A stretch of 64,000 nt of DNA from Beroe forskalii (taxonomy: Eukaryota > Ctenophora > Nuda > Beroida > Beroidae), in contig WFMF01000306.1 of NCBI GenBank assembly GCA_011033025.1, forward strand, positions 62,001-126,000, in the 5' to 3' direction. Shown one piece after another: positions 6,296-45,800 of this stretch. The notes under the pieces are model-generated. The model was not told the DNA's origin, searched no databases, and was given only the letters and a program-made list of their open reading frames with translations. The position numbers and the translations under genes are program-made. The first letter of the stretch is position 1. Each line of letters begins with the position of its first letter.

Positions 6296-6304
6296 CAAAA
6301 AATA

Positions 6305-14407: not shown

Positions 14408-16014
14408 GATGAAAGGTTGGAGTATAATCAGCAACTGTGAGAGCACTGTTGAGCTGCAGTCCATGAAAGGAGAACACTTGGCTGACGTACTGGAAGAGTT
14501 CGCGTACCATTACCAGATAGATCCACTACCAGTGGTCAACAAGAGCACTGTTATTCTAGAGGTTCGTGTTGCAGGAATCTAAAGCAATGTATAGACATCT
14601 TTAGAAGTATAGTGAAACTACATTGTATTGAATTAGTGAAACACACTTCTAAGTGCGTTTCAGTAATTCAATGTTGTTTTTTCAATACATGCCTGTATTT
14701 CTAAGTAGTTACAGTTGCAAGGGTTTATTTATACAATGCTTTAGATCAAAAAGGCTTATACTTTAGCAATGGAAATGCTGGTTGCAGTACTCAAACCCAT
14801 TATTCGAAGTAATTCGATAATACACGGTGTGATTTAAGATGCTTTCCTTGTTCTCTATTCAACATCCTACCCTAATTTCAGAACATCAGAGATCTCCTTG
14901 ACGAGATAACATGTTGTATTGAGAACTACGACAAAGACATCACTGACCTGTATCCGTCCCTGCAAAACGCCCCCAATAAGGACGATTTGGACGGGGTTGT
15001 AGTGAGTGCACGACAGGTACGGAACTGTGATTAAATCATTGGTATTTTGGAGTGATTTCACTCGAACTGGTTCCTTTGGTTGTGTACACGGTCATTTAGA
15101 ATTACTTTTTCTGAGTCCCTTATATAAACAGCCGATGAGATCACACATCACATCATCAGTACTAGGCAAGTAGCCAGAAATCAAGGTTTACAAGTAATTT
15201 AGGTTTATGCCCTTTATGACTTAATACTCAGCTGGCACAATATTGTCTAACTAGGTTGGAATTTAATGACTTTAACCCTCCGAATGTTTTTGAAATTCTG
15301 TATCGCAACATCAGGTGGCACTCTGTAGTAAATTTCCAACGTTAAAGTGGCAATCTTTGATCGGTCACAAATTTTGAAAACTTGTACGGAAGGCGCTCAA
15401 CTATGTTTCTTAGCGCGCATCACGCCAACGCGCAGCAAATATTCGATTATTGTAAATAAATAAATCACTGCATTTCTGTGTGATAATATCACTCAAAAAG
15501 TCAAAAACCCAGTGATCATGGGTTATTTCGTTTGAAAAAGTGACTATTATGAGTGCTCGACAGGTGAACGTGACGATGAACCAGTACCTTTCCTCCATCT
15601 CCCCTCCATCTGACTTAGAGTTGTGTGACGCGCGGCTCTCGGCCCTCTCCCTAGCACTCGCAAATCACGTCTTGGTGTCGAGCAACATCCTGGTCCGATG
15701 TCAGAGTACCAACTGGTTACCGACCTACTTTCAGGTATTTTACTGTTGTTTAGTTATCTTGTTCAATAATTTTCTTTGTGTTCTGTTAACGCTTATCAAC
15801 CGTAATGGCATTTTGTTATCAGTGCTACTATTGCCTACCAATACTAAATACTTTGTACTAAAACAGCTGCTCAACTTCATCACCGACTTTTGCTCCAACT
15901 CTCTATTTAATCTCTAATACAATCCAGGATTCTCTGAAAGAAATAGAAGAGAAGATCGTCGAGCTACGCGAATATCTGAGTGCTGGAAGTGATGATACTC
16001 TGACCAGTGTCTGA
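14408..16014 (+). CDS. Unrecognised gene, last four exons
   Basis: Four phase-0 exons with canonical GT-AG borders: 14408-14561, 14882-15016, 15564-15734 and 15928-16014 (TGA at 16012). Together they encode about 180 residues: MKGWSIISNCESTVELQ, then LADVLEEFAYHYQIDPLP, NIRDLLDEITCCIENYDKD, VNVTMNQYLSSISPPSDL, and a terminal DSLKEIEEKIVELREYL helix. The composition suggests an alpha-helical, partly coiled-coil C-terminus. I do not recognise the family and assign no function. The 5' part is not visible; the 8.9-kb transposon block lies upstream. Oddity: intron 2 is flanked by the same 16-bp sequence, TGAGTGC(A/T)CGACAGGT, at donor and acceptor. The next exon could also be read slightly upstream, but the AG at 15562-15563 keeps frame. 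Confidence 0.75.
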
Positions 16015-17114
16015 AAAACAGATTTCCTTTGATGATAATATACATTATACATGATAGTGACTGGACAAATATATATTATGTATACATTCGATCAATGACA
16101 TGATAAACTTTCTCTATATATCGTGATACTATACTTTAGTATTCTACTGGCATGTGTGCTCATCGGTCGAATGTACAAAGCAACATGTAGGAAGGAGGGG
16201 TGAAGAGAGACGGGCCTAGTGATCTGAACGACTCGATTAAATCTTATGAGAAATACGACCTATGTGACAGTGATTCCATATTTCAGTAATAACAATTGAG
16301 TTGTGGCAACACTTGGCTGTTCATGCCAATGCTTTAGACCAGGCTGCAGTCCGACTGATGAGTACACATGCATAATATTGGATATCATTTTATGTCTATT
16401 GCAGTATTAATTGGAAATGTTAATACACTTTTTTCTGATAATGCCTTGAATCGTGTTTCTATCAAGCTGTATGATATTTGATAATTGTAAAATACTTTGC
16501 CGATATTACATCAAGTTTAACTCTGTACGTATTATATTAGGAAAAAGCTACTTGCTCTAGCTCTCTTCAATATTCTAGAACTCTAAAATATATTTCATAT
16601 TCCGTTACATCTCGTTATGATGCCCGGAGAAGGATAATTGTGGCAAGTTGATCAAAGTAATAAGAGAGTTCAGGATAATTCATTTAAGACTTCCCACAGT
16701 AATATTTTAAATTGTTAAAAGGCATGAAAACCACGTTATTTCGTATGATGTTTTGTATTCCATTCAAATTTGTCAATGTCATGATAAACACCGTCTTATG
16801 ATTATTCTTACTTCTGTTATTGTAATCATACAAAGACAATATACACGTCCCTATGTACCTATGTACCTGTTTTTTATTAAATTATTTGAAGTTTATGTTT
16901 ATGCATACAAAGTTAATTTTACTTAAAAGTACATAGTTTCGTACATTTAACGTTTAATCATGAAGGATTTATGATGTTTTAGTATTTCTATCACTGCAGT
17001 TTGACCTATAAAACTTCAAATTCGCAATAGCTTAACTGACTTTTTCCAACTTCATAGAAAAAAGGACACGTGCCAAGATAATTCTTTTTCATGGTGAACT
17101 GCTTCAATGAATTT

Positions 17115-17327
17115 CAGTCGGGAGGAACGCCGAGATTCCTTCGGCGGACCTAAGGTGGACTCACCCTAACCATAGCTCTATTTTTTGCCCCAACTAGAAA
17201 CCCAACAGTCACCCTAACCCTTATCAACATCCCAATCCTTATCCCTCCACGATTAGGTTCTCCATAGGTCTGATAAAGCGAGTCCGCCTAAGGTTCACCG
17301 AAGGAATGTCGGCGTTCCTCCAGACTG
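17115..17327. mobile_element. Inverted-repeat MITE, about 213 bp
   Basis: Imperfect terminal inverted repeats of about 46 bp begin cagtc(t/g)ggaggaacgccga at both ends and flank about 120 bp of unrelated sequence. The CAG start would suit the hAT group, but the 8 bp on either side do not match, so no target duplication is shown. Confidence 0.65.
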
Positions 17328-17849
17328 CCGATTATCATTCTGATGCTTTAATAATTGATAAAGTCTATACATAATGAAAATATGCACCCATTAAATAATA
17401 ATATCATAATAGTTAAAGTTTAATTGTAGCATTACCCTATTGAGATGAGCCGTATGTACGTTTTGAGTTCCAGAGTATATTTTCGATCTTATTAAGTTTT
17501 ATGATCTTTGGGCATTTACATACTCGTACTGATGCAATACTGAATACTTTTGCTTCATGCAAAGTTTGTCCATATCAATTCGTTATTCGTCCATGAGAAG
17601 TGGATCAATTGTATCGCTGCACCCAAAATTTTGTAAAAATTGAATTTCATTATACTTTTATCTAATTTTGTGTACATCCTTTGTTTTAAAAAAATCTTCA
17701 TTCTATTCCCTGCAGATCATAAATCAAAATAGAAACGACGTTTATTTCCATTCGCAATATAAATAAGAAATGATACAATTACAAATCGGGATTAAAAGAT
17801 CTTACGTTACGCAACGTTATGACAACCCGAGATGTGATCTTTTTGCTTT

Positions 17850-18203
17850 TTTGTGCAGCATATAGCGATGCGCATTTTATTTCAAATTCAATGGGTTTGC
17901 ACATGTGTCAGTGATGTGCGGCAGTTCGAACTGCAGTTTGCGCGGCGCACAGACGTGTATTTACGCCGCTTTCACAAAACTGCAGTTCGAACTGTAGCCG
18001 TAAAAACACTTAAAAAGCACATCCCCCAGCGTCATTTCACCGCATAATCATGGTGTCTCGACTTTTTTCAGCGCGTCATATTACGCCGCGCGTGGTACAG
18101 CGCGCAAATGTGCTTTTTAATTCTATGCAACGTATAGTTTGCTTTTTAGAGCAAGATTGCGCGGCGTAATATGCCGCTCTTTAAAAGGTCGAGACACCAC
18201 ACC
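17850..18203. repeat. Compound nested palindromes
   Basis: Inverted pairs are nested or adjacent: gcagttcgaactgcagttt with its inverse near 17980; aaaaagcacat (18010) with atgtgcttttt (18105); tggtgtctcgac (18051) with gtcgagacacca (ending 18202). Internal gcgcggcgtaatat words recall the hairpin at 13.3 kb. Confidence 0.6.
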
Positions 18204-18512
18204 ACCCCTGTTATTGAAACTTGAACTTGGAGCTAAAAGGTGTGGGAACAGCAATGCTATCATTTGTAATTCACCCTGCCTGTAGTCACACATACAAACT
18301 CGGTGATCTGAAAATGAGCAGGGTGAATTACAAATAAAAACCAAGCATTGGCATGTAATTTGCATAGGTATCATGTAGATAATGTGTTGTTACACACTAC
18401 ATGCAGGTATATCTCGTTAATCGAGAAAGGTATATGTACCAAGAGTGCCATATATAGAATTAAATCTGATAGCAATGCTATCACTTCACCAAATATTCCA
18501 CATTCATTAATA

Positions 18513-18748
18513 AGGCTTCCGTAACGTTCGTCGGTCGATCGAGTGGAGTTGGTCGATCGATCAACTCCATTTGAACGAATGATGTGTTTTACTGGTCCCT
18601 AATGACTTGAATCGTGTTTAAATGAGCAATTTTGAGTTATTTCCCTATTAGGTCAAAGATTTTCTATTTAAAACACATCAGTTGATCCAATGGAGTTGAT
18701 TGATCGACCGGTTCCATTCGATCGACCGACGAACGTTACGGGCGCCAA
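18513..18748. mobile_element. Inverted-repeat MITE, about 230 bp
   Basis: Arms of about 50-70 bp begin ccgtaacgttcgtcggtcg and contain repeated ggtcgatcga words. They are inverted copies around a 100-bp AT-rich centre. The core lies at 18519-18742. Confidence 0.7.
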
Positions 18749-18917
18749 ACCAATTTTCTGTAATGAAGAACACTACTAAATCATGAGCAGAGAAATATTT
18801 TCACTACGGATTTGTCTTCATGTTCCCGATACCAGGGGTGTCATGATTGGTTAGGTTAAGATCTCATGAATCCCTGCCCTCTGCTACCGTCCCAGGTGAA
18901 TGAAATGTCCAATTCCA

Positions 18918-21900
18918 CTAAACGCCACAAACACGGGTGTGGTGGGCTGAGTCCTTGGATAGACACTCCGGCGAGCAGTACTTGAAGGAGCACGTGTTGC
19001 ACTGGACTTTGTTCAAGTTAGCATTACACACGCTACACACCGCAAACATGAGCATTCGATCCACGCTTTGCAAGCAGTCGTAAAACACCTGGGAGAAAGA
19101 CCGTTCAGTAAAGAGCCACCAACAAAATTGAAAATTTTGTACCAAATACCAATGGCAATACTTACTTTAGTTTTACTAGTACTACTTTGGAAACATGGCT
19201 TGCGAGTTAGTTCAAAACATTAACACATTACAAATAAGGCTTTAAGATAGTACCTTGCGATTGGTGGAAAGGTACAGTCCGTTGTTGGCGTATGTTGCGA
19301 GGTACTGATCCCACTCTGCTCCGTACCGGTCTTCTAAGTAACCCTGAAAAGGATGCTAAATTAACGGGAGACACAGAACCCATTCACATCCAAGGTCTCC
19401 CGAGTGTTAATGGGACCCTGTTGCTTTGGGGAAAGATTTCATACGCCGGGGGACTGAGGGGGACGAATTAAAACTTCTGGAATTTTAAGATATTTTGCAT
19501 TTAATCAATCGGTGCTCACTGAAATGATTTGATATTTACCTTAAGATCTGACTCCTTTACTGTAAGAGAGTTAGCCAGTATACCACCCTCACTTTTCTGC
19601 TGTGTAGTCGTGTCCTCGGGGGTGATAACGGTGTAATCTTCAGTAACATCTTTATCTTCATTCGCCTCACTGAACTTTACTCCTTTCTTACTCTTCTTTG
19701 TCTTTTTCCGTTCACTTCGCTGAGTTTGAGTGTTATTAATGTTTAAGCACGGAACACACATAACGAATAACAACGATAATCTAAAGTTTCGCTGTCAAAT
19801 TGAAATGGGTACTGACTACTGCTACACTGCTAAGTCATGTGATAGACTCATGTATAGAAGAACTTGGGAACCCCAAAACAACGCCAGTAATTCACGTATC
19901 TAATGCTAAATTCGAATATGGAGTAACAACTTTCAGCTTACTTTTTATGGTGAACTCCGATATAAAAGCGTTCTTCAGTTCAGCAGCGAAGTCTGACAGA
20001 AGCTTGCCAACTTTTGCTTGCAGAGCTTTCTTCATACCTGAGATCACAGTCACGGGTGATAACAAATTTCCAAAACGGTGATATTAATGATTAACGCTAA
20101 TACAATGAAGTTCCAATCACGTGACTCATGTTGGGGACTAAGGACTCAACTGACTTCGATAACTATTTAATGAGTGTCTTACCTACCAGTACAAGAGTAC
20201 ACAGATAAGTTCAAAGTAGGTACTCTAAATTCTGACTTAGCAAGTTCTTCATACCTGGCATATACTGGAGCACTTCAGTCTGAATGAGTCCGTCTCCCTT
20301 CCCGAAGTCGTCGTAGATCATTTCCATGGCTTTGTCCATGGGGTAGATGTTGTCTTTGTGTAGGGGGTTCATGCACACCACCATGTTTCTTGCCAGGCAG
20401 GATGTAGGAGATAAATGATAATTTCGGAGATAATAATCCGCACGATTTTCACGCGTTTCAGCTGCATAAACATTTAACACAGCTGACACGCGTGTAAAAT
20501 CTTGTGGATCATTAATATTATGGCCATTGTCAAATGCCAACAGTGTTCAAGCCTCTATTTTACAATTCATGATTCAGTTGTAATTGATTGAAAATTTGGA
20601 GGTCGTGCTGAAAACACCAAGCAAGAACTACTAACCAGGCAGGAGAGGGGGAAATAAGATGATCTGTCAACTCCCAACTCTTCTATAACTTTCTCTAGAA
20701 AAGTACAGGCTCCGAACTTCTCGATGAGTTTGTCGCTGTACCTCGGCCCTTTCTCACAGAGAGTGTTGTAAAACAGCATCACCTGACCATGATACATTAC
20801 TACATTATAGTACAATAACTTCAGCAAGTAATCTCAGCAATCAATCTCATATGATTTTAAACCCCCTAGATTTTTCTTCTGCAGCGCAGGTTTTTTCCGT
20901 TTAAGTTTTTCCATTGTTAGAACAGTGTGATATCCACAGGACAATAATTATATTTTCAAATTCGAATATCAATTTGGAGAGCAGAATATCTTACCTTGCT
21001 CTTAGCAAATCTGAAGAAGGTGCTCGGAACAGGCTCATTAAGGATAAACCAGTACAGTTCCAGCAGGGTGTCCTTTCCCATGACTGCGTCCAAATCCGCT
21101 TCAGTCATCCCTTTTACTGGGATCTGTGATAGGGAGAATTGTCTGGTGAAAAATCAGAAGTGGGACAAAAATCAGAAGTGGAGCAAAAATATGAATGCTT
21201 TTTATAGCAGTTTGTTATCATTTAAGTTTAGTATTTTTTAATTTTTAGAATAATTGCCCAATGCCCAATTACAATATCAATTCATGTCTCATGATAAAAT
21301 TCCCCCTTGATAAATGACCCTCCCAATACCTCGTATATGAACCAGGAGATGATGTTGACAAAGCAGTTCACTTCTCCTGGCATGTAGGGAGTCAGTGCGT
21401 TGAGAAGCTCCAGTTGTCTGGCAGGGATCCTCTTGTTCCAGTGCGTCACCAAAACTCCTGCAGCAAACTTTAATTGGTTGGTTGGTTTACCACACATGAA
21501 TTGGGCGTAAGTGCCTCATCTAACGCTCCCGTGGGGGCGTTGTGGGGGCGCCAATTCCAAAAGCTCAAAAAGGGTATCGGGCAGAGCACTATTGCCCAAT
21601 CATTAAAATGGTTTTGAATACTGGTTCCTGTCAAATTTGAGAGGTAAAAAGAGTTTTTTTTTGTATTTTACAGGGAAACCAGCGAAAACTGGCGAATATC
21701 ATTGCTGCAATGGTGTCAGGCTCATAATTAAAATCTATGACTAGATTGGGGTCGACTTCCTTGCCAATACAAGATTCGTTGCATCTGGCAAGTGACAACT
21801 TTAATTTCGAAATTCTTACCAGGTTTGAGGAACTCCTCGACCACTCCGTGGAATTCCTCCAGGATTTCCATGAAGAATGGTTTGTGCGTTGATCCAAGAG

Positions 21901-24621
21901 TGAGCAAGTACTTGAGCAACACCTAAAAGAAAAGGATAAATCAATGGAAGCACTACTACACCGAGAATGTGGATGATATTCACTCAGATTGATATTCTAA
22001 CTTGCGTCTCCTTAACAATGCCGCGTTAAAACCTGATAGCAACACCCCACACTCACTTGTCAGGCGTTGCCTGACCCCCTAACTCCCTAATGGGTCTGAC
22101 GACGTCAGACTAACACTCACCAGCACAGTAGCCAGACAGGGACTGTTGTAGATCATGTGCTGGAAGGTCGGTATTATCTGTCTACACAGCCGTTGGTGAG
22201 CGTAGTCCGTCCTTGTGATGTCGTTCTCTGCTCGTTTGGTTGCCAGGGCAACCAGGAGGGTTCCCACGGACATCTGAACGGTGGAGAAGAGGTGGGTGTC
22301 CTCGGCCTTCAGAGCCGGGTACTCGGCTTTCATGAGGGAGAGGATGGCCGTGGTAACTCCTGGAGAAAGGGTTGTTTTCAGGGTTTGTGAGGGGACTGGC
22401 TTTTTTAATCTTTATGGATATCAAAAATCTATAATTAAATTCAAGTGTTTATGAATGTTTATTTCCTTGCCATGAGCCATGCCTTCCAAAATAAAAATTC
22501 ACTCCAGATGAGTCCTGGTTATTACCTGTTTTGAACATGGTGTCAGTGAGAGTTGGCTGTTTCTCAGGAGGTACAGTGAGATACACCTCTGCCATGGCAA
22601 CACAGAAACAGATCGTGTTCTCCATCCGTCTCTTAGATAGCACACCGTCCTTGTCGGGCTGGGGTATAAAGCAGGATTAGTTTACTGCGAAATTAGAGGA
22701 CTGCTACCTTGCACTGGTATTCTACCTAAATATCAAAGTGGTTCCATTGGACAGATATCCATTGAAAATGTCCATTAATTCCACATCAATTTCTGATATA
22801 TGGGTCTGTACAGAATGGAATTTGCAACAACCTTCCCCCATAGTTATATTCAATAACAGGAATAATAAACTCACCAAGACTTCGTACATGTTCATGGTGT
22901 TGAGGATGTCGTGTCCCACCTCCGCACTGAACAAGTCCGCCCCATCAACAGAGAGAGACAACTCCGTCTGAAGTCATAGAGCGATTAATTATTTAAGCAT
23001 ACCATTCAAGAAAACAATGTTATTACACCGTGGCTCCTGTTACGAGAAAAACTCGCGAGTCAAGCCGATAAAACGCGCGAGAATTTTTTTGTCGTAGCTC
23101 CTGTGCAAGAATACTTGCGAGAAAAATCGGCCTTTTGACTCGCGAGAATGTTCGCGAGGCAAATTTACAAGAAGACGTGTTCAAATTTCTCGCGAGAAAA
23201 ACTCGCTAGGCCAATACGAAAAAGGAATAATTGATTTAATGTTCAAAGATGAGAAGTGTGCAGCACACGCCTATCACCCGGATGTAAAATCGAATTATCT
23301 CATTGATTGTATGTGCGCTCGGCGCTATACCCTAGTGATTTGTCAATTGTGATTGCTCTCCCAGTTTGCTGTTGTTTTGAAACATTTTTCACGATACAAG
23401 AACCCAATTGTTATTATAAATGCATCCTGCAGTTATCTTCGTTATCACCTTCAAGTTCAATTCAGGGTAACATAATTGGGATTAAGTTTCTAGAGCGATT
23501 GGTGTTAATTGCAACTTGTATATTATTCAGGAGTTGCTCAATGAGAAACTTAAGACCTAATTAGCCCCGAAAGTCGCTTGTTTGACATTTATCAATCATG
23601 AAAGATGCTGCTGTGATAACATTATCTATAGAACATTATCTCAGAAATGTTCTAATTAGTAAATGCTAATTGTATACCTAGGCTCTTGTCTAGAATTGAA
23701 ATACCTATGTCCTATACCAGTACCAAGTATAAATTAGAATCACAAGTCCCGAATTTTAATGTCGCTCTTTAGTTCATTCAGTCTCCCTAGATTTCAATTG
23801 TTGCAGAAATTTATTTCTTTGTGTTACACATTTTCATTTAGACTTTGGGTTTTATGAAACTTAAAAGTATACCAATTTAATGGCCATGACCCTCTACTGA
23901 CCCACTGGTTACTGGTTTTTCTGCAACTCCAGCATTATCCTGTTCTGATAAATACCATGTACTGATAGTTTGAACTAGGTACCTAGGTTAAGGTACGTAA
24001 TACCTATTTCAATTTTATAGCAGTGGTTTTTAAAATAGTGATTCTCAGTGAATAGCCCCATCCAAGCAGGTTGAGGTTCTCTCTGCTTTTTTGCTTGAAT
24101 GCGTCATACTGGCTAATAAGGGTTATCACAGGATTATCTGTAGGCATCATAATACCTCACTACCTCAGGGTATCGGTATGGGCAGGTGTCATGATCATGT
24201 GGGGTTATGGGAAAATAATGATCAGGCTTTCCCTATGCTGCCGTTTACCATAAGTTTGCCAAGGAATTTACCACAATTTTACCACTAGTTAATGAAAAGT
24301 TTATCATTACTGGAACCTAACCTTATAAGTTTCCCTCGTTAGGTTGCCGTTAGTTTAGTATTTTACTGTTTACCATTATTTTACCACAACATTGCCATAA
24401 GTTAACCATGATTTTACCATAAGTTTCTCAAAACATTACCTACTATACAAGAGTATAAGTTAACCATTATTTTATTTTTATCAGTTTATATATTAGGTTC
24501 TAAGGAGCGCAAACAAAGTTTTTTAAACAATTACCTCAATCTCAGAGTAGTGTTTTATCATCCTGTCGTCTGGTTTGCAGGCCTCCCACAGGAAGGTTAC
24601 GTGCAGGGCGCTCGTTGCCAT
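18918..24621 (-). CDS. MYND-type zinc-finger protein with an all-helical body
   Basis: Exons (minus, 5' to 3'): 24621-24535 (start MATSALHVTFLWEACK), 22967-22875, 22658-22526, 22359-22121, 21922-21820, 21457-21330, 21123-20995, 20782-20636, about 20462-20255, 20037-19942, 19719-19540, 19343-19254 and 19088-18918. That is about 600 codons. The body looks like an alpha-helical repeat protein. A charged Lys/Glu linker (exon 11, about 60 residues) is followed by a C-terminal MYND finger: CSVCNANLNKVQCNTC, then KYCSPECLS and H-x3-C, which supplies the zinc ligands. MYND fingers mediate protein contacts, often with proline-rich motifs. I cannot assign the orthologue. The right edge of exon 9 and the phase of the exon 10/11 join are unresolved. 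The exon 9/10 intron is bounded by CAGGTATGAAGAA on both sides. Confidence 0.8.
22057..22110. repeat. Pair of short palindromes in the MYND gene intron
   Basis: gtcaggcgttgcctgac and gtctgacgacgtcagac lie about 20 bp apart, just downstream of the exon 4 donor. The same pair, in reverse order and variant form, is at 39918-39971. Confidence 0.6.
23030..23220. repeat. ctcgcgag-rich repeat in MYND gene intron 1
   Basis: Degenerate repeats around the palindrome ctcgcgag and the words gctcctgt and gagaaaaa, about 60 bp apart. Not coding. Confidence 0.5.
24130..24470. repeat. Degenerate ttaccataagtt repeats in MYND gene intron 1
   Basis: Words such as ttaccataagtttgcc, ttaccacaattttacc and ttaaccatgatttt recur irregularly every 12-20 bp. 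Confidence 0.55.
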
Positions 24622-25826
24622 GGTTACCACTCAAATTTGAAGTGTTTTCAAACGTCAGTAGAGAGTAAGACCGGAGGTCATATTTTTAATACAACAGAAA
24701 ACAATAACGTATGACGAAAGTATGAAATAACGAATTTTATCAGTAACTAAAGGGGGTAAAACTTGGTCTAACCCTGTGGTAACTAAAAGTAGGTATACAG
24801 CAACACACAAGTCTGGTATAGCGTGCAGCGTGTGTTTTGCTGCAATGGAAGGGTTGGGTGTTGAAAGCTGAGCTGTGTACGAATACCATGGCATGGAATT
24901 CTTCTGTAAGCTGCTGACAATTGTACAACAATCCGGTCTGAGGCGAGTCGTTAAACAAAATACAAGAGTGTTAATGTATGTATTAGTACACGCATTCTTT
25001 TACTCAAAGCCCAAAGGTTTCTACATCAACAAGAGTCAGCAAAAGTTCAATTTTATCACAATTTACGATAATGTCAAACTGTGGGAGTTGGCTTTTCAAT
25101 TTCATGACATGAGAGTTGAAGATAGGAAAAACATAGGTTTTAAGAAACATCAGAAATTTTACTATGAAGGCGAAAAGCATGAACACAAAAACTCAAGGTT
25201 AACAGGTTCAATAATTAATTATGCGAGTGTAATACATTTCCATTGTAATTATACGATTTACTATAACATAAATCATTTGCACCTATCATTCCATGAAACA
25301 TGAAGCTCGGGTATGTACATAAAACGGTAATAATTAGAGAATATGGTGCACTAGAGAAAATCCAAAAACGAATATAATATCGTAGGTATTATTGTTGGTA
25401 CTATATCCTAGTAGATCTATTAACAAATATAAAAATAATAAAGTTCGTCCAAAAATAACGTTTATAGATGGGATGGAAGGGTCACATTGCTACACGCAGC
25501 GCATGTTTTGTTTTCTAACTTTTCAGATATGCCATAGATTTATTTGTTTGATAACATTAATTTTTTTGACTTCAATCTAGTGCCGTCAGCCTGTTATAAT
25601 TTTATTTTGCAGAACAAAAAAGAAAATCAGGTGGTCAGAATGAATAATATAATGGTTATTACCTATGTAGTATGTAGTACTTATATAGTTCGAGCGCATA
25701 TTTTTTATCATTTCCTAAATGACGCAAACCACATTCAAGGTGTGGTTTGTTCAAATTTCCATATTTTCTCCTTAATTTGAGGTTCCGGCGGAAATACCAA
25801 GTACACCATACCAAGAGCTAAACGCA
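24622..25826. other. Intergenic region between MYND and malic enzyme genes
   Basis: Both neighbours are on the minus strand, so this holds the promoter side of the MYND gene and the 3' flank of the malic enzyme gene. A 142-codon AT-rich frame at 24875-25303 (+) has no recognisable motif; I do not call it a gene. Confidence 0.5.
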
Positions 25827-31183
<5,357 letters not shown>

Positions 31184-34100
31184 GGCGCTCACAATGACAC
31201 CTCAACACGGGGGAATGGTAACGGTTGGGAGTGGTAATATCTGGAAGTGGTAGTAGCATTTGGAGAGTGGTAACAGTTAGGGAGTGTTATCAGTTTGGGA
31301 GTGTTAACAGTTCAGATTGGTAAAATTTGGTAGTGTTAACAGAATAACAGATGGGAGTGGTAACAGTTGGGTGATTTTAAGAGGATGAGATATTGAGATA
31401 AGTTGTGTTCGATCAAGGGAACAGCATTGCTGGGTTCGAGAATAACAAATGTCACCAAGAGTTCAATATTCGGCCACGCAGAAACCTTCCCGCATCCTTG
31501 GCTCACAAGAGACAAAGCTCAACATAGTGAAGTCAGAAGTATACATAAGAGTAAACGGCTCAATCTGACACGGGGCTTAGGATTTACTTATAAATCGAGA
31601 GCAGGTGTAGATTATAACCATGATCGGTCAGTAAGCTTAAAGCTGTAAATATATTGGTATTTCAGAAATTTAGAGCACTCTGACTAAGTGCCAGTAACCA
31701 GGTGGTAAGGATTATCAGAGCTTAATAATAACTGTAGGTAAATTTCTCATAATAACATCTGGATAGAAATGTCCCGATACTAAGGACTTAAGGAGCTATT
31801 AACCATTCAAATCCGAATTTTTACAGAATTCATTATAGAAAATAAATGATTGGATAATTGGATATTATGAAAATCGAGGCAAATCATACTTTAGAACGCT
31901 CATCACTCCATTGAGGACAGTATTTTGATTATTGCACAATATCAGTGGAAAATGCCCCAATTATTTAGTACTTTGATTACAGAGGTCTGTGATAAAATTT
32001 CATCAAAGAAATAAAAGGTGCAAACCCGCCCTCTTCATTACAAAACCATCAAGAAAGAGAAACGGAACAAGAGAAACAGGAACAACAGGTTTATCAAATA
32101 CCCGGGGAGTGAACTTCTGCAGTTCCTAAAATTAGCAAAGTGTTTCGTTGCAGAGCACAGAACTTCTTATCTAAAGAAATTTCTTATCGTATTTGTGAGT
32201 CAAGGCTCTAAATTTGATTTGCCTAACGTCACATTTGTTCCTCATCATGCTTATTTCATATTTCAGTCGCCTTTCAATGAGCTCTCAGTTTCATTTCAAA
32301 TCTTATCTTTTCGGTGACTTTTTAAAATCTGAGAGTTCAACAGTTTTAAGTATCTTCGTAGTTATTTTCACTGAGAAGTTCGTGTGGAAAGGTTGTGTTG
32401 AATCTGCTTGAAATTTGATAAAATCAGATTAAATTAAAGTTCAGCTGTGGATTTTGAAGGAAAAAGGTTTAGGAAACGGAGGCCATTCCCTCGGTTTCAT
32501 GCTAAAAAGTTTAAGACTTATACGCGTATGTGTTTAATTTTCAGATTAGAACAGAGGTATATACAGTAGGCTAGGACATATGAAGTGAAATTCAATGATA
32601 TCATATAACGCGAATAAATGACTCATTTTTTGACGAGATAACAAAATTTGAGTGACGTTGATCAAATATTATAACGTCGCAGGTTCATTCATATGTCTCA
32701 ACGAAGATAAGTTGATTTAACAAAATTTACATCTTTTCCCAGAAATCTGAAGAAATAAAAACGTACGTGCTTATTTCATGATGTTGTCAATTGTACGACA
32801 CCCTTGAAAAGTTGAAGTAAGGGCGTGACCTCACAGAAATAAGCAGAGTCTGAAAGTCTGAATAGTAAATGGAACCGAGAGGCAGACTCTGCAAATATAT
32901 AGCAATAGGTAACCACGTACGTTACTGACTACTGAGAAAAGTGAGGACCACTAATGGGATCGGCCACCTGAAGCACCTGACCACCTGGACATAATTCCTC
33001 AAAACACCTGATACTATAGAATACTTCCTACGTTATTCAGATAAAAATCCAAAATATCGGTATAGAGTTTCATGAATAGAACCATAGTAGTGGCGAGGAA
33101 TAAAATCTTAGACTTTTAGAGATTTATAAACGAAATAGATCATAGGATGTGAGGAGTTTTAAACGCTTTAAACTTTTACAATATTGTAGAAATGACATTA
33201 GATTAAGTTAGAATATTCAAGAAGCTGCCCCAAAGCAACAAGTATAATGAGGCTGGGATACCGCGAATATGGCACGCGGTTACATGATAAAACGGTGAAT
33301 GTCTACTGCATAGTACACAGCTACTCAAATTTAACAAAAAGTCTCAAACTCTGGTTTGACGACCCTCATCAGAAATAAACGCTCAGATTGTTAAATAGAC
33401 TCCTTTATAAAATTTAATTTGATTCTAGTATTCTAAGGTATTTTTGAGTAATCCTCAGTGCAATTGCCAAATAGTAACGCTGATTCAACGTTATTCTATG
33501 ATTCTACAGTCTACACTGTTGTATCGAAGAGACCACATACTTTAACTACTGTATATGCGAGCCAGACAGGATTGTTCAGTTTAAATGGTCCTTATTGCTT
33601 TATTGAAAGTTCAATTATCATAATATTTTGGACTGACTTAGAGTTAAGTTATAATCTACATGAGACACTACTGTTACCAGATTTACAGACAATGAATAAC
33701 TATTAAACTTACGTAATGTTTAATGGATCCAACGATCGAAGAGAAAAAATGAAACCACTTTGAGAAGCAATGTCGATACTAGTACTGCAACTTACCAGCG
33801 AGAGCATTGGGCAATGATACTATTGTACTTAAGATTTTACACGAAAAGCTTCATAGAATAAGGTGAAAACCGATCATAAAAACCACCATTCAACAGAAAT
33901 CACTCTATTTCTGTTACAAATTCATCAGAATAATCAATGTCAAGACAGCTCGATGGATAGCACAAAATTTCAAGACAATTCGACAGAACAAAGTAACTTC
34001 GGGACTACCTGGCAGAATACACAGAGTAACGAACAGGATCTAACTCGAGACACATATTCTCATCATCTGACAGAGAAGTTAAAAGAAATATAAGAAACAT

Positions 34101-35786: not shown

Positions 35787-36601
35787 ATTTTGAACAGTGG
35801 TGGATCTACAATGGGGTTGTGGCGGGGTTGCAACCCCGCCACTTTTTCTGCTGTGGGGTTGTAGTGGGGTTGTGGGGTTGTTCTTTTTACAGTGGGGTTG
35901 TTGGGGTTGTGAGCAGTGGGCTGTTGCAAACAAATTATCTATTACCAAATTGATCCTAGATGCGGATTCAGATTGAAACCTTGAAAATTTTTGCCTGCAG
36001 CAGGCTTTTGTGATCAGATTATATATTACCAAATTGGTCCTAGAGGCTGATTCAGATGCAAAATCTTGAAAAATTTTGCCCGCAGCAGGCTCTTATGATA
36101 AAATTTCGTGACTTAATTGGTCTTAGACACAGCCACAGATATAGAAATTTTCGCCTGCGGCGGGCAGTTGTGATGAATTTCCTGTTAGACACTGACACAG
36201 CTATGTGAATCATTGATTTTTTTGCTTGTTATCAAATTATACATTACCAAATTGACTTGAGTGACAGATTCAGATACCAAATACCTTGAAAATTTTCGAC
36301 TGCAGTAGACTTTTGTAATAGATTATGTAACTAAATTGGCTAAAGACACAGTCTTTGATATGTATAAGATTTTCAAAATTTTCGCCTGCGGCGCTCAGAA
36401 AGATTAATAAGGATTATGATCCAAAATAATATTGCCATTCCTTGTATTTGTTTTGTTTTTTGCAAGTGAGCAGCGGTTTAAAAAATCTTAAGAATGGATC
36501 TGAGAGGAAAATTAAAATTTTTTGGGTGTGGCTGGCTGGATCGCTTTGCTTGCCAACAACCCCGCCACTTTTTTCAGCCTGGATCCACCCCTGATTTTGA
36601 A
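35787..36601. mobile_element. Non-autonomous hAT element, 799 bp, with 8-bp target duplication
   Basis: The element spans 35795-36593. The left end cagtggtggatctaca and the inverted right end caggggtggatccagg form hAT-type terminal repeats. The 8 bp attttgaa occur exactly on both sides (35787-35794 and 36594-36601). The interior has a palindromic caaccccgcc block near each end and degenerate repeats of about 100 bp with gcctgcagcaggc-like palindromes. There is no transposase frame, so it needs a transposase in trans. Confidence 0.92.
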
Positions 36602-36770
36602 GCCTTTGTACTAAAAGATAATATTGTTATTAGGGAAGTTTCCCTTTAAATTAATCAAACTATGTAACCTTCTTACACAACCCTCCGAATCTACCAAGAA
36701 AACATACGTCATACCTAACAAATTTAATATTATGAAGCACTCAGGAGGCAACAATCAATCGCTAGATGTA

Positions 36771-36890
36771 ACATGAATAACAGTGTACACTAGAATAGTA
36801 GAATGACGGTAGGAATTACGGTAGATGTAACATGAATAACAGCATACACTAGAATGATGGTAGGAATGAGATTCATGCTTGCTGCACGCG
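36771..36890. repeat. Two-copy tandem repeat, about 60 bp
   Basis: gtagatgtaacatgaataac followed by agtgtacactagaat is repeated once with small changes. Confidence 0.75.
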
Positions 36891-38619
36891 ATGCTATTAG
36901 AGCGTTCAGATTGTACAGTAAAGTAATACAATGCACGCATATTCTAATCTCTATTAGCTCCATTCCGTACCATTGTTATCCATAACAATACCTTGTTCCT
37001 GAATATATAACTATATAATCCATTCAGAGGCACGCCCATAATTCATTTCCTCATTAATCATTACAAATCATCAACATACACAAGTTCATCTCATTCTCTG
37101 GGCCGTGGTAAAGGTAAACTACACTCTAACGAAAACAACAATACGCTATAAGATTATACTGTATTGTATTCAGAGAGAAAAGCTAAACCTCATGTCATAA
37201 GTAGATTCTACTTCATACTTGTTCATATATAATAGATATATCACACATTAACACTATATAACACATAGGTAAACATATACATCCACTAAATGTGTGCAAT
37301 GTAATTACACCGCTTACCAGTGACCATTGCAGGCATAGAGATAAAATGTACTGCACTATACAGGTTATGCCCAATTACTTAATAATGAGAGCTCAGATGC
37401 ATGGATTTTAGGCCTTTGGAAGCACTCGCACCTAGTGTCAAAATGGGTGCTTAAAGCACAAACACACTCTTACATTAGGATATGATACTTAGGGATGGTA
37501 TAATTTCATAGTATTTCATTGATTTGGACTGATTTTGGTTTATTGAATAGTTTTAGAACAGTAGCTAGGTACTGTGATTTAGCTAAAAATCTAACCCTTC
37601 ACATAACCTTCACATAACCTTCACACTTAAATAAAAACCTGCTTATTCCTTCTCCCATTTTCAGCAGATAACTGCACATTATTTCAACATGCTGACTTTC
37701 ACTTTTATTAGTTTCATAATTAAAGATAACCAATAATCATGACAGATAGCATGATGATTAGACTCAAGACTGATCTTCTAGGCAATTTTATGCTTGAATG
37801 TTAGTACCTAAAGATCTTGAGTGTTCAGTGTTCGCGGTCCACGGAGCTCTTATTGATCACAATTTGGAGGAGACAAACCTCGCAGTATCAAAATTGATGG
37901 GTATAGTTATTCACAATAAACAGTTCGCATTTGGAGTTTCAAAGAAGTTTCAAATGAATCTCACAACCTCTGTTCAAAGCTCTGAAGCAGCCTGGCCAAC
38001 AAAAAGCAATTCCTTAGTTCCTTATAGACGACTGGGAAAATCGCATTTGTTCTGACAGAATAAATACTCAGCTGGAAACTTAGAGAATTGCCCAAGATGT
38101 AATCGAATTTTGATATCAGATCATACACCTAATTGGTTATGGTTTTACGAGATAAATATGTACGATGCCCATGTCAATATCTAGATTGTTAAGGCCCATA
38201 TCGTATCACCAAAAAATAATTCGTGACCAATGTAGACTTGAATGACCAATGTTCAATGAACTACCTGTGGACCCCATGTCCATAATCCATTGGAATTTAC
38301 CATTGGTTTCCATAGAATCCAGGTGGCATATCTGCATTAATCTTATTAAACTTAGAATTTCAGCAGTCCACAGACTATAAATCATCCAATTATTGCGAGT
38401 CAGCAAATTGTAAAATATCATTTGAAGTCAGTTTTGGGAGGTTACCCATGAAATTGTAATTCACAAACCTGGCTGTAAGTATCTTGAAACACTGCTGGCA
38501 AACATGGCGCTATATCATGACAAGAAACGAAAATAATTCCGTGCATTACCAACAATAGCGAGTCCGAAGAATTGTTATCCAACGCGATAATTAAACTCGC
38601 ATATTTTAACTTTCAATGC

Positions 38620-39130
38620 GCGGCGCTGGAACATCTTGCTGCATGCTCGTAGGATGCGTGCGCGCATCTGTTTAGCTTAGATCCTCGAAAGAACGCTGAG
38701 GGTTGTCAAACCCAGTGCAGAGCATTATGCTGCCCGTTTCTGTTCGTTTTTGGGATCACGAACTTTTGTTATTTTGTGATATCCCGGCCTTTTCCTAACC
38801 ATGCAAAGGTATGAGTACGCGCGGCAGCGCGCGCTTCTGAGGCTAGGAAGCGCGTCGCGAACTGAATCATTGTCGTACGATGTATGACCCGCTGACGCCA
38901 GCCGCGAAGCGGCTGGCTTCAGCTGAGAATTTGCCCTTACCAAGACCCTGGTTTTGCTAAACACGTATATCCCTGTGTGGCTCGCGCGGCGCGCTTCCCC
39001 AGCACAGGGAAGCGCGCGGCGCGTACACACACCTATGCGGGCTTAGGAAACCCTGGTTACGCGCACGGAGTGCGCGGCGCGGCAGCCGCGGCAAGCGTTT
39101 CGCGACACCCCTGGTTAGGGGAAGCTGAGA
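38620..39130. repeat. GC-rich dispersed repeat modules
   Basis: gcgcgc-rich DNA in which short modules recur: ccctggttacgcgcacggag, tatatccctgtgtggctcgc, and acacacctatgcgggcttag. The same modules occur at 39.45-39.72, 41.2-41.3 and 59.2-59.56 kb in both orientations. Sharp change from the AT-rich surroundings. Confidence 0.75.
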
Positions 39131-39198
39131 ATCAGCGCCGCTGATTCTCGAGAGGGTCTGTCAACGCCAGACTTCCTTGCCAGGCGTTGCCTGGCCTA

Positions 39199-39455
39199 TG
39201 GTGTCCGAGAGTGGACACAAAAAAAATAAGTCGAAAAAAATAAGTTGAAAAAAATAAATCGAAAAAAATAACTTGAAAAAAATAACTCGAAAAAATAAGT
39301 CCAAAGTCGAAAAAAATAACTCGAAAAAAATAAGTTGAAAAAAATAAATCGAAAAAAATAACTTGAAAAAAATAAGTCGAAAAAAATTCATCGAAAAAAA
39401 GTAACTTGAAAAAAATAACTCTAAAAAAATAAATTCTCAGTTCACAGCTCAATAT
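39199..39455. repeat. A-rich aaaaaaataagtcg array (left inverted arm)
   Basis: Units of 13-15 bp, aaaaaaataa(g/c)t(c/t)(g/a). The left edge ggtgtccgagagtggacac and the right edge ctcagttcacag are both found in inverse order around 40.90-41.14 kb, so this is one arm of an inverted duplication. Confidence 0.9.
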
Positions 39456-39857
39456 AGGTTGCTAAACAAGTATATCCCTGTGTGGCTCGCACGGCGCGCT
39501 TCCCCAGTAGCGCGCTTCCCCTGTGTGTCCCGTAGGGAAGCGCGCGGCGCGTACACACACCTATGCGGGCTTAGGAGATTCGCTTGCTAAACACATATAT
39601 CCTCTTAGGATGTTACCCTACCCTCGCGCGCAGTGTTCCCCTAACCAGGGGTTCCCCTGCTGCGCTGCGCACTCCGTGCGCGTAACCAGGGTCCTGGTTT
39701 AGGTTAGGGCAACGTGCGGTGCAACGTTCCACATTTGGACGCGGTCACTTTGTGCTCTCGCCATCCAGTCAGAAGAAATAAACGGACTTAACGTCCGTCG
39801 ACATAAATCCCTGTTCGCATTGCACGGCGCGCTTCCCCATAGGAAAGCGCTTCTTTT

Positions 39858-40080
39858 ACATTGGTACCAATGGTGATTGCTGAAATGGCACCAAACCAAT
39901 GGCGCACCCTATCTCCATTTGTCTGACGTCGTCAGACCCATTATTTCAAATGGGGTCAGGCAACGCCTGACAAATCTCCATTGGTACCATTGGCGATCGC
40001 CATTGGATGCCAATGGTACCATTTAAATGGAGCCAATGGCCGAATGGCGACAATGATGCCATTGGTGCCAATGGTACCGA
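39858..40080. repeat. Cluster of ccattgg/ccaatgg words
   Basis: The palindromic-type words ccattgg, ccaatgg and ttggtaccaatgg appear about ten times in 220 bp beside the T-rich array. Confidence 0.6.
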
Positions 40081-40512
40081 TATATTTTTTCGATTTATTT
40101 TTTTCGATTTATTTTTTTCGATTTATTTTTTTCGATTTATTTTTTTCGATTTATTTTTTTCGACTAATTTTTTTCAACTTATTTTTTTCGAGTTATTTTT
40201 TTCGAGTTATTTTTTTCGATTTATTTTTTCGATTTATTTTTTTTCGAGTTATATTTTTTTTCGAGTTATTTTTTTCGAGTTATTTTTTTCGAGTTATTTT
40301 TTTCGAGTTATTTTTTCGAGTTATTTTTTTCGACTTATTTTTTTCGACTTATTTTTTTCGACTTATTTTTTTTCGACTTATTTTTTTCGACTTATTTTTT
40401 TCGACTTATTTTTTTCGACTTATTTTTTTCGAGTTATTTTTTCGAGTTATTTTTTTCGACTTATTTTTTTCGACTTATTTTTTCAACTTGTTTTTTCGAC
40501 TAGTTTTTTTCG
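40081..40512. repeat. T-rich tttttttcgacttat array
   Basis: About 30 tandem units of 13-15 bp. The long frames full of Phe, Ser and Tyr read through it are artefacts of the repeat. Confidence 0.9.
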
Positions 40513-40899
40513 ATAATAATGGGTCGGGCAATGTCAGAAAAAGAAGCCCTTACGTTTATAGTGTTTCTGAGTGATGTTTTCTTAACAAGCGCCCTATTAG
40601 TATTCTGCGCTTGCCAGACGTTGTCTGCCCCATATTTTTTTTCAACGCGAGGGGGGCAGGCAACGCCTGGCAATTCTGCGCCGCGTGCATGTGTGCACTG
40701 CGCCAGTGCGCTGTCGTTTGTTCTTTTCTCGGCCGATGACACTGATGACAGGCTCGTGAGGATCAGCGCCGCACTGGCATCAGCGGCTTACTCAAACAAG
40801 ATAACCCTCTTCTGCGCACGGCGCACGCCGATCGGCGTTAGCACCTGGTTTAGTGGTTTGGTGAAGTCAGTGGGTCATACAACGTCAGACAAGCAAGTC

Positions 40900-41135
40900 T
40901 CCCATACTGAACTGTGAACTGTGAATTTATTAATTTATTTTTTTCGATTTATTTTTTTCAAGTTATTTTTTTCGATCTATTTTTTTCAACTTATTTTTTT
41001 CGAGTTATTTTTTTCGACTTATTTTTTTCGACTTATTTTTTTCGAGTTATTTTTTTCAAGTTATTTTTTTCGATTTATTTTTTTCAACTTATTTTTTTCG
41101 ACTTATTTTTTTTGTGTCCACTCTCGGACACCATA
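40900..41135. repeat. T-rich array (right inverted arm)
   Basis: Inverse counterpart of 39199-39455, including the outer tag gtgtccactctcggacac and the inner tag actgtgaactgtgaa. The arms of about 240 bp are about 1.45 kb apart. Confidence 0.9.
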
Positions 41136-41369
41136 CCTGGCCCCCTCGCGCGCGCGCCCCGACTCGACAAAAAATATGGGGCAGGCAACGTCTGGCTAAG
41201 ACTTCCTTATAAGCCCGCATAGGTGTGTGTACGCGCCGCGCGAGCCACACAGGGATATACGTGTTTACTTGTTTAGCAAACGCCAGACAGCTGAATCAGT
41301 ATACGTGTTTAGCAACCCGCAGCCTTGTCCTACGTTTATAGGACCTATTTTGCGCGCGCGTTCAGGGAA

Positions 41370-41765
41370 CACGTCATACTGCTGTCGACAGTACGTCATA
41401 CTGCTGTCGACAGTACGTCATACTGCTGTCGACAGTACGTCATACTGCTGTCGACAGTACGTCATACTGCTGTCGACAGTACGTCATATACTGCTGTCAA
41501 CAGTACGTCATACTGCTGTCAACAGTACGACATACTGCTGTCAACAGTACGTCATACTGCTGTCAACAGTACGACATACTGCTGTCAACAGTACGACATA
41601 CTGCTGTCAACAGTACGTCATACTGCTGTCAACAGTACGTCATACTGCTGTCAACAGTACGTCATACTGCTGTCAACAGTACGTCATACTGCTGTCAACA
41701 GTACGCCAAACTGCTGTCAACAGTACGCCATACTGCTGTCAACAGTACGTCACACTGCTGTCGGG
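41370..41765. repeat. 22-bp satellite array 1, 18 units
   Basis: Unit catactgctgtc(g/a)acagtacgt. The five leftmost units have ctgtcgacag and the others ctgtcaacag. All three forward frames stay open, which follows from the unit having no stop, not from coding. Confidence 0.95.
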
Positions 41766-42078
41766 ATACTGCGTGTATTACTGCTTTACCATAGAAAAAT
41801 ATTCGTTTTCTGTTTTGTCCCTTTAACGTGAGATTGTCGTAGTTTTTGAATTAAATTTTTGGATTTATATTTTTTCTTTATTCTGTATGTAAGCATTATA
41901 CTTTTACTTAATTAGTTACGTATTAAATTATTAAATTATTCAGTAGTTACTTTATTTTAATCTTTACACTATATAGGAAAATTGAGGGAAGATGATAGTT
42001 GAGCTCATAAAACATGTTTAAGTCGCCAATGCACAATCTAAAGTTTGTGAACCTCAATCAATAGCCTTTTACTTGTTA

Positions 42079-42412
42079 TACTGCTGTCAACAGTACGACA
42101 TACTGCTGTCGACAGTACGTCATACTGCTGTCAACAGTACGTCATACTGCTGTCAACAGTACGCCATACTGCTGTCAACAGTACGTCATACTGCTGTCAA
42201 CAGTACGACATACTGCTGTCAACAGTACGTCATACTGCTGTCAACAGTACGTCATACTGCTGTCAACATTACATCATTATGCTGTCAACAGTACGTCATA
42301 CTGCTGTCAACAGTATGTCATACTGCTGTCAACATTATGTCATACTGCTATCAACAGTACACCATACTGATGTGAAACAGTAAGTCATACTGCTGTCAAC
42401 GTTGACAACAGT
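42079..42412. repeat. 22-bp satellite array 2, about 15 units
   Basis: Same unit as array 1, about 310 bp away across unique AT-rich sequence. The right end decays (accatactgatgtgaaacag and similar), giving way to normal DNA near 42420. Confidence 0.95.
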
Positions 42413-42805
42413 ACGTCAACAGTACGGTCAAAGCCATGCCATTGGCTCCTTTAAATTCAGCCTCAATTCGACAAGATTTTAAATCAAAAACTATCTTTAG
42501 ACTTTTCCAAATCCATTCAATCTTGTATCTACATTTATAATTGTAAATATCAGAGAAAAATCGATCAAATTTACTGAAAGTTTGTTTCACACAGCTAAAT
42601 ATTTCATTTGAAAATGAAAGAAGAATATAACTTGCAATATATTTGGGGATAACAAAGCATTTTCGTTATGAATTTGGTCCACTGAACGTAAAATAACTTT
42701 AATTTAAAATTCGTAAACTCCAATTAAAATATCAAATATCAAAATATCATAACAATGCAAGAATAATAAAAATTTGTTCTCAATAATGTGAAGAGTTTTT
42801 CTAAT

Positions 42806-45800
42806 TTAATCTGATTTTGATTCTGGTTGTTTCATTCGTTTGAGAGTACTCAGGAGATACTGTTTTTCCTCTTGTACCTGCAACGTTTTCCGGTTATCTT
42901 GAATGGTTTACTTCTCTAAGGTTATCTTGAGGTTATCTTGAGATAAACCTCGACCGACTGCATTTTGAGGCGCGGCGTGGTACACTGCGCAGTGCGCATG
43001 GATCCTTTTTTGCAGCGCGTGACAGTGAAAAGTGTACGATCTTGTACAAAAAAGGGGGGAGGCAAACGTATATGATGTACTTGTACTTATATTTGCGTAG
43101 AATTGTGTTAAATTTAGTACGAGAATGTACTGTGTGTATCCGTACGAAAGTATTTGGGAGAATGTATGGGCAATAATGTAGACTTTTACCTTGAGTAACT
43201 CTGTCCTGAGTTCCTTGGAAAGATTCAGAAGAGCGTCGTTGTGAATCTCGTATTCCTGTACCATTTGTCTCAGCTCGTCAATACCGCTGGAAAGGAAGAG
43301 TTTACCACTGTTAATTTTTTATAGTCATCGAAATTAACAACCTAGGAAATGGTTCAAGAGCTCGAGTTGAAAGATGATACGAATTACGAGAAAATTGAAA
43401 TTAATTACTCACGCCTTTCCGATCTCTGAATAGTTTGGAGCGGTTGATTCGATGTTATCCAGTCTCCATGATCCAAAACTGGTTCTACCTTTCAAAGCAA
43501 GGTAACTTTAATCAGTTCAGAATAACATGGATTCACAGGCATACACTTGAAATCTAGCCGGTTTCATTTCTACTTAATTCATAATAAACGTTTGCTGACC
43601 CTCAATACTTCAACACAGCAATTTGGGTACATGTGAACACTGAAAACATACCAAAACTGGTTCTACTTTCACTCTCCGCCTGAATATCTTCAGCTTTTAT
43701 ATGTACCTGGTGTTGAATTCGAGTAAATACATCATCATTTCATGATATCGGGTTAAACACCCGACGAAGAAATGTCACATATCAAATCTTAGGATACAGT
43801 ACAAACTGCAAAAGTACAATATCAAACCAACTGTTTCTGAACTCACAAATTCGCCATCACTACTGCTACTCATGGCATCTTCCAATGTGAAGGTATGTGA
43901 TTCTCCGGCCTCCACAACAGACAGCCCCTCAAATGATGGTCGTGTTTCAGGAACACTGTCACTGCTTACAGAGCCAATGCTGCCTCCAGGACTAGGAATA
44001 ACAGTTACATCAGGAACATTATCAGTAGGGTCCAAAACTGAATTATTTTCACCGGACTCATGCTTAGGATTCCTTTCACTGGTGTCAACAGTGCTGTCTC
44101 CACTCAGGGAGGAGTCTGTGTTATCGGATATAACCCGGTCACTGTCTGCAATAGAGGAGTCACTAGGATGAATGTCTTCCACTGACTCAGTCAACATCGC
44201 ACTGCTTTCACACTGCTTATCTTCCCCCTCTCCTTCACTGCTATTATCTGGCCCTGAGCCAAGTTCAGTTTTATCATCGGATTGGCTGATAAGACCAGCA
44301 TTTTGGATAGTCTCGTTACACGTGATAGTGACATCGTTGGAATTGATGACGTCATCGGGGCTGCTCTCGTTGCGGGGCGTGATAACCTCCTCTTGCGGAG
44401 TGAAGATGGAGCTCCGAGGGGTCAGATCGTCCAGGCGAGTGTCGTTGTCTGAATCATCGGAACTGTCGATGATTTGACCCTCGTTAAGGAAGATGGGTGG
44501 AGTGGCAGTGTCGATGTCTTCGACCAGTCTCTCGTACCCTGAATAAGAAATGGAGGTGAATATACACAATGGGACTTTGAGTTACACTAACTATGACTCC
44601 GAATTCTAGGGTAAGATATTTGTGGGAGATGATCCAAGAGATGAAACTTAGAAAGCTAACCTTTTGGGTCCTGGAACTCGGCAGGCTGAGACGACGATGA
44701 ATGGGTGGAGTCTGGGGTGGGTGAAGGAGACTGGAGTGGGCGAGTGGGTGACGGGGAGCGCGAGGACGAGGGGGAGGAGGACTGCGAGGAGGGGGAGGAA
44801 GGCGGGGCGGGGGGAGGGAGCAGGGGTATGGGGGATACCCCATCCTGCTCGTCTCCACTCATTCCTAACAGCGCTTCCTCTTCCTTGAGCGATACGCCGT
44901 CTTCTCTTTTCATTCTGACTCCGGGTAAACCTGAGTCTTCCAGCCAGGGCGTGGTCGGCTGGTCTTCTGAGGAATGTGTCATAAGTTAGACTTCAAATTC
45001 TTAGACAGTTGACGCGACCGCCATAAAAAACGATCACGTACCTACACATGACGCTCGTGTGGAAACTTCAACTTTTCCGAACCGATCTGTTCAGATTTCG
45101 CGACACATCCATAACTGTTCCACCCGCGGATTATAAATCTGAAGAAAATGAAGCGTGTTGTAGACTTAGAGGGTTTCCGGACTAGCCCTGCGGCCCTAGG
45201 ACAGATTCAAAAGGAATAAACATAAAATTACATGTCCTACCTACCTAGGAAATATTGCTGCTCACCACCGCTTGCTGGACCACCAGCTTCCGACTTGCAG
45301 CGTGGCTCTAACGGCACCCCCTGTACTCTGACCTCAACGTGTCGTCTTGCAGCCTGTATTGGGATAATGTTAGGGAAGCTTTGATCGGAACTATCCCCTT
45401 CGGAACCCTTTTTCGGATGTCAGAATGGCTCACGAAACACTGAAATAACAGCTCACGGTTTATAAAAGTGACACTGTAATTACCGGTGACAGGTCATCCT
45501 CAGAGTTCTCTGAGGAGTAGTAGGAGGAGCTGCTCTGAACGCAATGTGGTCGGAGGTGCAGGGCTCGGGACTTCACCAGTTTCTTGTTGGGGCGGGGTCT
45601 ACTCCGCACGCAATCCTCGCTAAACGTCACACTCACAGCCTTGCAGGGCGTACTGACGGCACGTAGTGCGCTCTTAGTCGGGGTGTCCGGGGTTTGACGA
45701 GGATCAGAGGGGCTCTGAAACATGGTTAATTAGTCACAAAACGTCATAAAGAATCCAAAAAGCATCCAAAACGCGGCAGAGTCCAAAACGCGCCAAAAAA

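Follow-up and report, generated by a model that had tools for sequence, protein, structure and literature searches.

How new introns originate has been asked for a long time, and for most of the gains described so far the source is not known. The closest described cases are the neo-introns of Daphnia pulex, which passages of PMC4202315 attribute to the repair of staggered double-strand breaks: repeats of 4-12 bp lie at opposite ends of the new intron, the sources of most inserts are unknown, and gain was recognized from population polymorphism. Excerpts of a survey of intron borders (PMC11782384) report that all 213 introns examined have repeats, averaging 11.4 bp (range 4-30 bp), on or close to their splice borders, with offsets and imperfect matches allowed. 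For ctenophores, including Mnemiopsis, the covered passages of the literature on intron gain contain nothing on flank repeats, and a literature search on recent gains in Mnemiopsis leidyi returned nothing. Here, we analyze a 64,000-nucleotide stretch of the genome of the ctenophore Beroe forskalii (hereafter the window; contig WFMF01000306.1, positions 62,001 to 126,000), in which an earlier note had described four introns, in four genes, with the same exonic sequence at donor and acceptor, and had read these repeats as a signature of intron birth. All four repeat pairs are present where they were reported. For three of them (introns 1, 2 and 4) we favor, at roughly an even chance, an origin by insertion of unique DNA into an exon with duplication of 13-16 bp of the target, whereas the repeat at the fourth (site 3) is of a quality that shuffled introns also reach.

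Introns were predicted from sequence with a small ab initio gene finder written for this analysis, which is blind to repeats and was trained on the window plus 200 kb of contig C1. Training started from hand-picked seeds, and because these included both exons flanking intron 1, the placing of that intron is not fully independent. Two early settings were discarded, one of which over-predicted and the other under-predicted. The first usable gene set held 119 predicted introns in 264 kb; the final set, for which a further 50 kb from the contig of the window was added and the finder retrained, held 254 (window, 86; added flank, 45; C1, 123), some of which are surely false. Predicted genes scoring 12 or less and introns with incomplete flanks were excluded before counting. 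The donor and acceptor sides of each intron were then aligned on the splice-junction diagonal, with shuffled donor/acceptor pairs that keep the splice consensus as the control. Among the 119 introns, two reach a junction-register score of at least 11 (sites 1 and 2, both at 13), where 0.00 were expected and the shuffled maximum was 10. Among the 254, the same two score at least 13, where chance predicts 0.000 and shuffled pairs go no higher than 12, and most introns here thus lack the feature, as the earlier note had said. In a shuffle of 12,000 pairs that allows one-base gaps, no pair reaches the scores of site 1 (13), site 2 (13) or site 4 (18, the longest match of the four), but the score of site 3 (9) is equalled by 29. 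In a comparison with shuffled pairs, which the note had proposed to make genome-wide, three of the sites thus exceed chance and the fourth does not stand out, and it is only at those three that the repeats can be entertained as a mark of intron birth.

Intron 1 (window positions 15017..15563, plus strand; 547 bp, phase 0) separates exons 14882-15016 and 15564-15734 of a GCIP/CCNDBP1-like gene found by the gene finder. Direct comparison places the donor-side copy of the repeat at 15003..15018 and the acceptor-side copy at 15550..15565 (plus strand; 15/16 identical), a match that spans -14 to +2 about the junction. With the splice position marked by a slash, the donor reads ...GCACGACAG/GTACGG and the acceptor ...GCTCGACAG/GTGAAC, and removal of the intron from the predicted gene model joins the frame as SARQ/VNVTM. 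The match of this protein to Pfam GCIP_C is sub-threshold (E 0.038; 14.8 bits against a cut-off of 36.2), pairs protein residues 49-129 with profile positions 23-102, and crosses the intron 1 junction; a search for a solved relative returned none up to E 10. The acceptor of intron 1 ranks at the 6th percentile of the 254 introns in strength.

Intron 2 (20038..20254, minus strand; 217 bp, phase 1), also placed by the gene finder, lies in a zinc-finger gene of the MYND or HIT type (zf-MYND, E 0.00038; zf-HIT, E 0.00048; both under their curated cut-offs). Its repeat, CAG/GTATGAAGAA, is found on the donor side at 20245..20257 and on the acceptor side at 20028..20040 (minus strand; 13/13 identical, or 11/11 as scored in a separate comparison), spanning -3 to +10 about the junction. 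The donor reads TGCCAG/GTATGAAGAAC and the acceptor TCTCAG/GTATGAAGAAA, and the predicted gene model joins as QYMPG/MKKAL. For introns 1 and 2, the ends chosen by the gene finder coincide exactly with the ends defined by the repeats, in both the 119- and the 254-intron set.

Site 4 is a hand model, added after the fact, in a gene that we take to be REPS-like and whose predicted product contains an EH domain (E 3.5e-10). Intron 4 (43489..43666, minus strand; 178 bp) has the donor GAAA/GTAGAACC and the acceptor GAAAG/GTAGAACC, or, with more of the flank, GTGAAA/GTAGAACCAGTTTTGGTATG and TTGAAAG/GTAGAACCAGTTTTGGATCA. The donor-side copy at 43651..43669 and the acceptor-side copy at 43473..43491 (minus strand) are identical at 18/19 positions, 16 of them in an exact 16/16 core; beside the core is a one-base indel, the extra base lying just upstream in the acceptor copy. 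The open frames on either side join as ESESRTSFGSWRLDN. The donor stands at the 5th and the acceptor at the 0th percentile of the 254 introns, and these weak signals, together with the weak acceptor of site 1, fit splice sites that were co-opted.

The two repeat copies at sites 1, 2 and 4 align on the same diagonal as the splice junction, allowing for the one extra base at site 4, and splicing would therefore restore a one-copy sequence and a single open frame. Each of introns 1, 2 and 4 matches only itself in the 216-Mb assembly (1134 contigs), by a search in which very common words are passed over, and thus they do not belong to any detectable introner family. Compared with one another, the intron bodies have no similarity, which lends no support to the common inserted element that the earlier note had proposed to look for by clustering. 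Compared with adjacent exons, they are not clearly similar outside the short repeats: the observed scores were reached by 5 and 11 of 40 shuffles at site 1, 8 and 27 at site 2, and 17 and 2 at site 4, the weakest of these nulls being the 2/40 for the comparison of the intron 4 end with the exon upstream. Site 1 contains six inverted-repeat pairs, with none at the intron ends among the five of the six listed, and sites 2, 3 and 4 contain no inverted repeats.

These observations would be explained if unrelated DNA of 531, 204 and 162 bp (introns 1, 2 and 4) had entered each exon at a staggered break, leaving 13-16 bp of exon on either side of the insert. The duplicated exon sequence would then provide the GT of the donor, the AG of the acceptor, or both, and splicing would take out the insert together with one copy of the duplication, leaving the protein unchanged. 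The earlier note had placed AG/GT within the repeat throughout; both dinucleotides are inside it at sites 1 and 2 only, and not at sites 3 and 4. Its suggestion of insertion with target duplication survives in the expected mark at three sites, though not in the form of a shared intron-forming element, for which neither a mutual match nor a second copy was found. We infer splicing at these sites, the gain of the introns, their recency, and end joining with filler DNA in preference to a mobile element; it is the identity of the repeats alone that suggests recency.

Short direct repeats were also counted irrespective of genes across the sampled 314 kb, leaving out tandem-masked, overlapping or long pairs. 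Unique repeats 60-700 bp apart number 52 pairs scoring at least 13, whereas five bins of wider spacing contain 22, 14, 15, 14 and 10, and the interiors of 38 of the 52 have no other copy within the 314 kb. Insertions that duplicate their flanks may thus be general in this DNA. Among the 52 pairs are the three sites themselves as well as a partial tandem duplication and arrays that resemble satellites, and this excess is therefore supporting and not decisive. Four of the 14 short-spaced pairs with multi-copy interiors were examined, of which three look satellite-like and one holds a small inverted-repeat element. A 13-bp exact direct repeat surrounds 208 bp at window positions 18250-18483; the first 72 bp have 17-bp inverted ends by eye, in the manner of a small miniature inverted-repeat transposable element, and the initial 64 bp are 97% identical to a stretch of C1.

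Several results weigh against the insertion of unique DNA. The splice signals of intron 2 are good (donor at the 90th, acceptor at the 32nd percentile), and the alignment of the unspliced frame at this site reaches some 15 residues into the intron and includes a stop, possibly the trace of a longer duplication that has since decayed. The young-looking repeats adjoin inserts for which no source was found in the assembly, and at 13-16 bp they exceed the 4-12 bp of the Daphnia class. Intron 4 is not reproduced by the gene finder, which sets a 31-bp exon (43609-43639) inside it, and its flanks score poorly for coding (-3.9 and 0.5). Under looser settings, which gave 494 introns, intron 1 is cut up differently, and one intron (site 2) scores at least 8 where 1.18 were expected, with a shuffled maximum of 59 that is presumably due to duplicated sequence. 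A scan made independently of annotation found no enrichment of GT-AG junctions among local direct repeats: the window has 4 against a mean of 6.4 over the 256 dinucleotide combinations, and C1 has 14 against 14.3 (ranks 171 and 103 of 256, respectively). Of its 21 candidate rows (4 in the window and 17 in C1, some of them duplicates), three have positive coding scores on both sides, namely site 1, site 2 and a proline-rich repetitive stretch of C1. A search of the genome for intron-free homologues of sites 1-3 (the site 4 gene was outside it) returned the genes themselves and three chance-level matches, and gain therefore remains a candidate only. Finally, passages of a Drosophila study (PMC3296678) report flank repeats of at least 5 bp at 19 of 77 gained and 26 of 100 conserved introns, no commoner at the gained ones.

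Could the repeats arise in other ways? One candidate is an inserted transposable element, either like an introner or a retroelement that has been truncated, provided that its other copies were lost, are too diverged, were skipped by the search or are missing from the assembly. There is local precedent in the truncated dispersed element (a 37-bp fragment) within the malic enzyme intron of site 3, and introners that use splice sites from a target duplication are described in parts of PMC9860276. Against it, introns 1, 2 and 4 are mutually unrelated, lack a second copy as far as found and have no inverted repeats at their ends, and the same parts of PMC9860276 give target duplications of 3-9 bp for earlier introner families; we regard this origin as unlikely. 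We think it rather unlikely, too, that these are older introns patched later, by complementary DNA (cDNA) of the spliced message that converts one exon and overruns the junction by 10-16 bp, an aborted intron loss. The end of the neighboring exon would thereby be written into the end of the intron, with the same in-register duplication as the result. Such an overrun accounts for young repeats without calling for a source of the intron bodies, and for matches that are mostly one-sided (-14 to +2 at site 1, -3 to +10 at site 2). It is, though, our own proposal, and the excess of local direct repeats across the sampled DNA needs no splicing.

Tandem duplication of an exonic AGGT segment, which the earlier note had put forward, gains something from the AGGT within the repeat at sites 1 and 2, from a partial example nearby in the malic enzyme gene and from the frame that continues weakly into intron 2. 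Yet the duplicated unit must equal the intron in length (178-547 bp), and similarity ends after 13-19 bp. The intron bodies resemble neither one another nor, clearly, the flanking exons, which makes duplication of a whole unit unlikely; overall, we consider this explanation highly improbable. Coincidence, arising from the splice consensus and a search over many introns, suits site 3 with its 29 equals among 12,000 shuffled pairs, and it suits the abundance of short direct repeats here, among which GT-AG pairs are not enriched. As none of the consensus-keeping shuffled pairs attains sites 1, 2 or 4, we give it a slim chance for the set. A wider claim, to which we attach a small chance, is that a copy-free process duplicating 13-16 bp of exon makes or remodels introns in this lineage, either as filler insertion with an unusually long stagger or as a cDNA-conversion overrun that counterfeits intron birth.

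The earlier note had said, on the window alone, that multiple cases would imply a high rate. The wider sample does not support this: 2 of the 254 predicted introns pass, or 3 if the hand model is counted, and outside the window the figure is 0 of 168. By simple arithmetic, both passing introns would fall among the window's 86 about 1 time in 9 under random placement, and the window therefore does not stand out.

Site 3 lies in a malic enzyme gene (claimed intron 30845..31065, minus strand; 221 bp; LNK/GMAMT) and is not beyond chance. Its repeat, ungapped, is 10/11 identical (30841-30851 and 31062-31072); the reported form, CCTAAA(A)TAAGG, requires one extra A in the donor copy. Among the 254 introns, 3 reach its score where 0.6 were expected. 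The resemblance between the exon ends can be put down to chance, and a simple insertion does not describe the structure. The sequence LNKGMA is coded wholly by the downstream exon and aligns with the LNKGMA of solved enzymes. In the upstream exon, DILRDPNLK is followed by a stop, which the extra A of the donor-side copy brings about; this exon either contains an assembly error or is dead. Inside the claimed intron is a possible alternative exon (30930..30964, minus strand; ending RNK), which the gene finder uses instead of the upstream one. The gene has perhaps two alternative 5' exons (30930-31200, minus strand), of which the one starting MLRRR holds an in-frame stop. Also inside is the 37-bp fragment (30880..30916, minus strand), a 3' end of a dispersed repeat family with at least 39 further copies at 87-97% identity among the best candidates listed. 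Alignments among three other copies that were read cover 115-432 bp and end within a few bases of a common 3' end, like a 5'-truncated retroelement as judged from these sequences. By eye, the fragment has a possible 9-bp target duplication (TCTTTCAGA and TCTTACAGA). Elsewhere in the gene (26284-26682, minus strand) is a partial tandem duplication, in which an exon end, an intron and the start of the next exon (GNNA.IF) are present twice. The two pieces of the extra copy are mutually out of frame, and the copy would therefore need skipping.

Other features of the window and genome were seen in passing. A mobile-element-like open frame of 1,023 amino acids, which we presume to be Penelope-like, and a broken second copy just upstream, closely similar by eye, occupy window positions 6284-7773 and 8466-11537 (plus strand). 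Long arrays at about 39100-42400 translate into repeated FFSTYFFRLIFF-like and AVNSTSYCCQQYVILLST-like units. The window itself is animal-like nuclear DNA. With its four in-frame TGA codons translated as tryptophan, the COX1 contig stays open over 507 residues; it matches known COX1 chains, and its unusual sequence is in keeping with a ctenophore. Nine of the ten best matches to PF00069 in the genome span nearly all of its 263 positions without a stop, which suggests that protein kinase genes here are intron-poor.

With two or three clean candidates that belong to no detectable repeat family, this animal would offer a further lineage for testing the break-repair model against the presence or absence of the introns in relatives, and the case also cautions that flank repeats by themselves are no proof of gain. 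Set beside described systems, these introns look like further examples of an already described kind of intron birth. As in the Daphnia neo-introns (passages of PMC4202315), direct exon repeats stand at both ends and the source of the insert was not found; unlike them, the repeats are 13-16 bp long, and the introns are known from one assembly and not from presence/absence polymorphism. The AGGT tandem genomic duplication described in parts of PMC3443670 shares the AGGT at both ends with sites 1 and 2, but the intron body here is no recognizable copy of exon. The border survey (excerpts of PMC11782384) likewise found direct repeats at splice borders, whereas here they were required to be in junction register, in which 2 of 254 predicted introns pass. 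With introners, as parts of PMC9860276 present them, introns 1, 2 and 4 would have in common insertion with target duplication and splice sites drawn partly from the duplication; introners form multi-copy families, some with terminal inverted repeats, whereas introns 1, 2 and 4 are single-copy as searched, with no such repeats seen at their ends.

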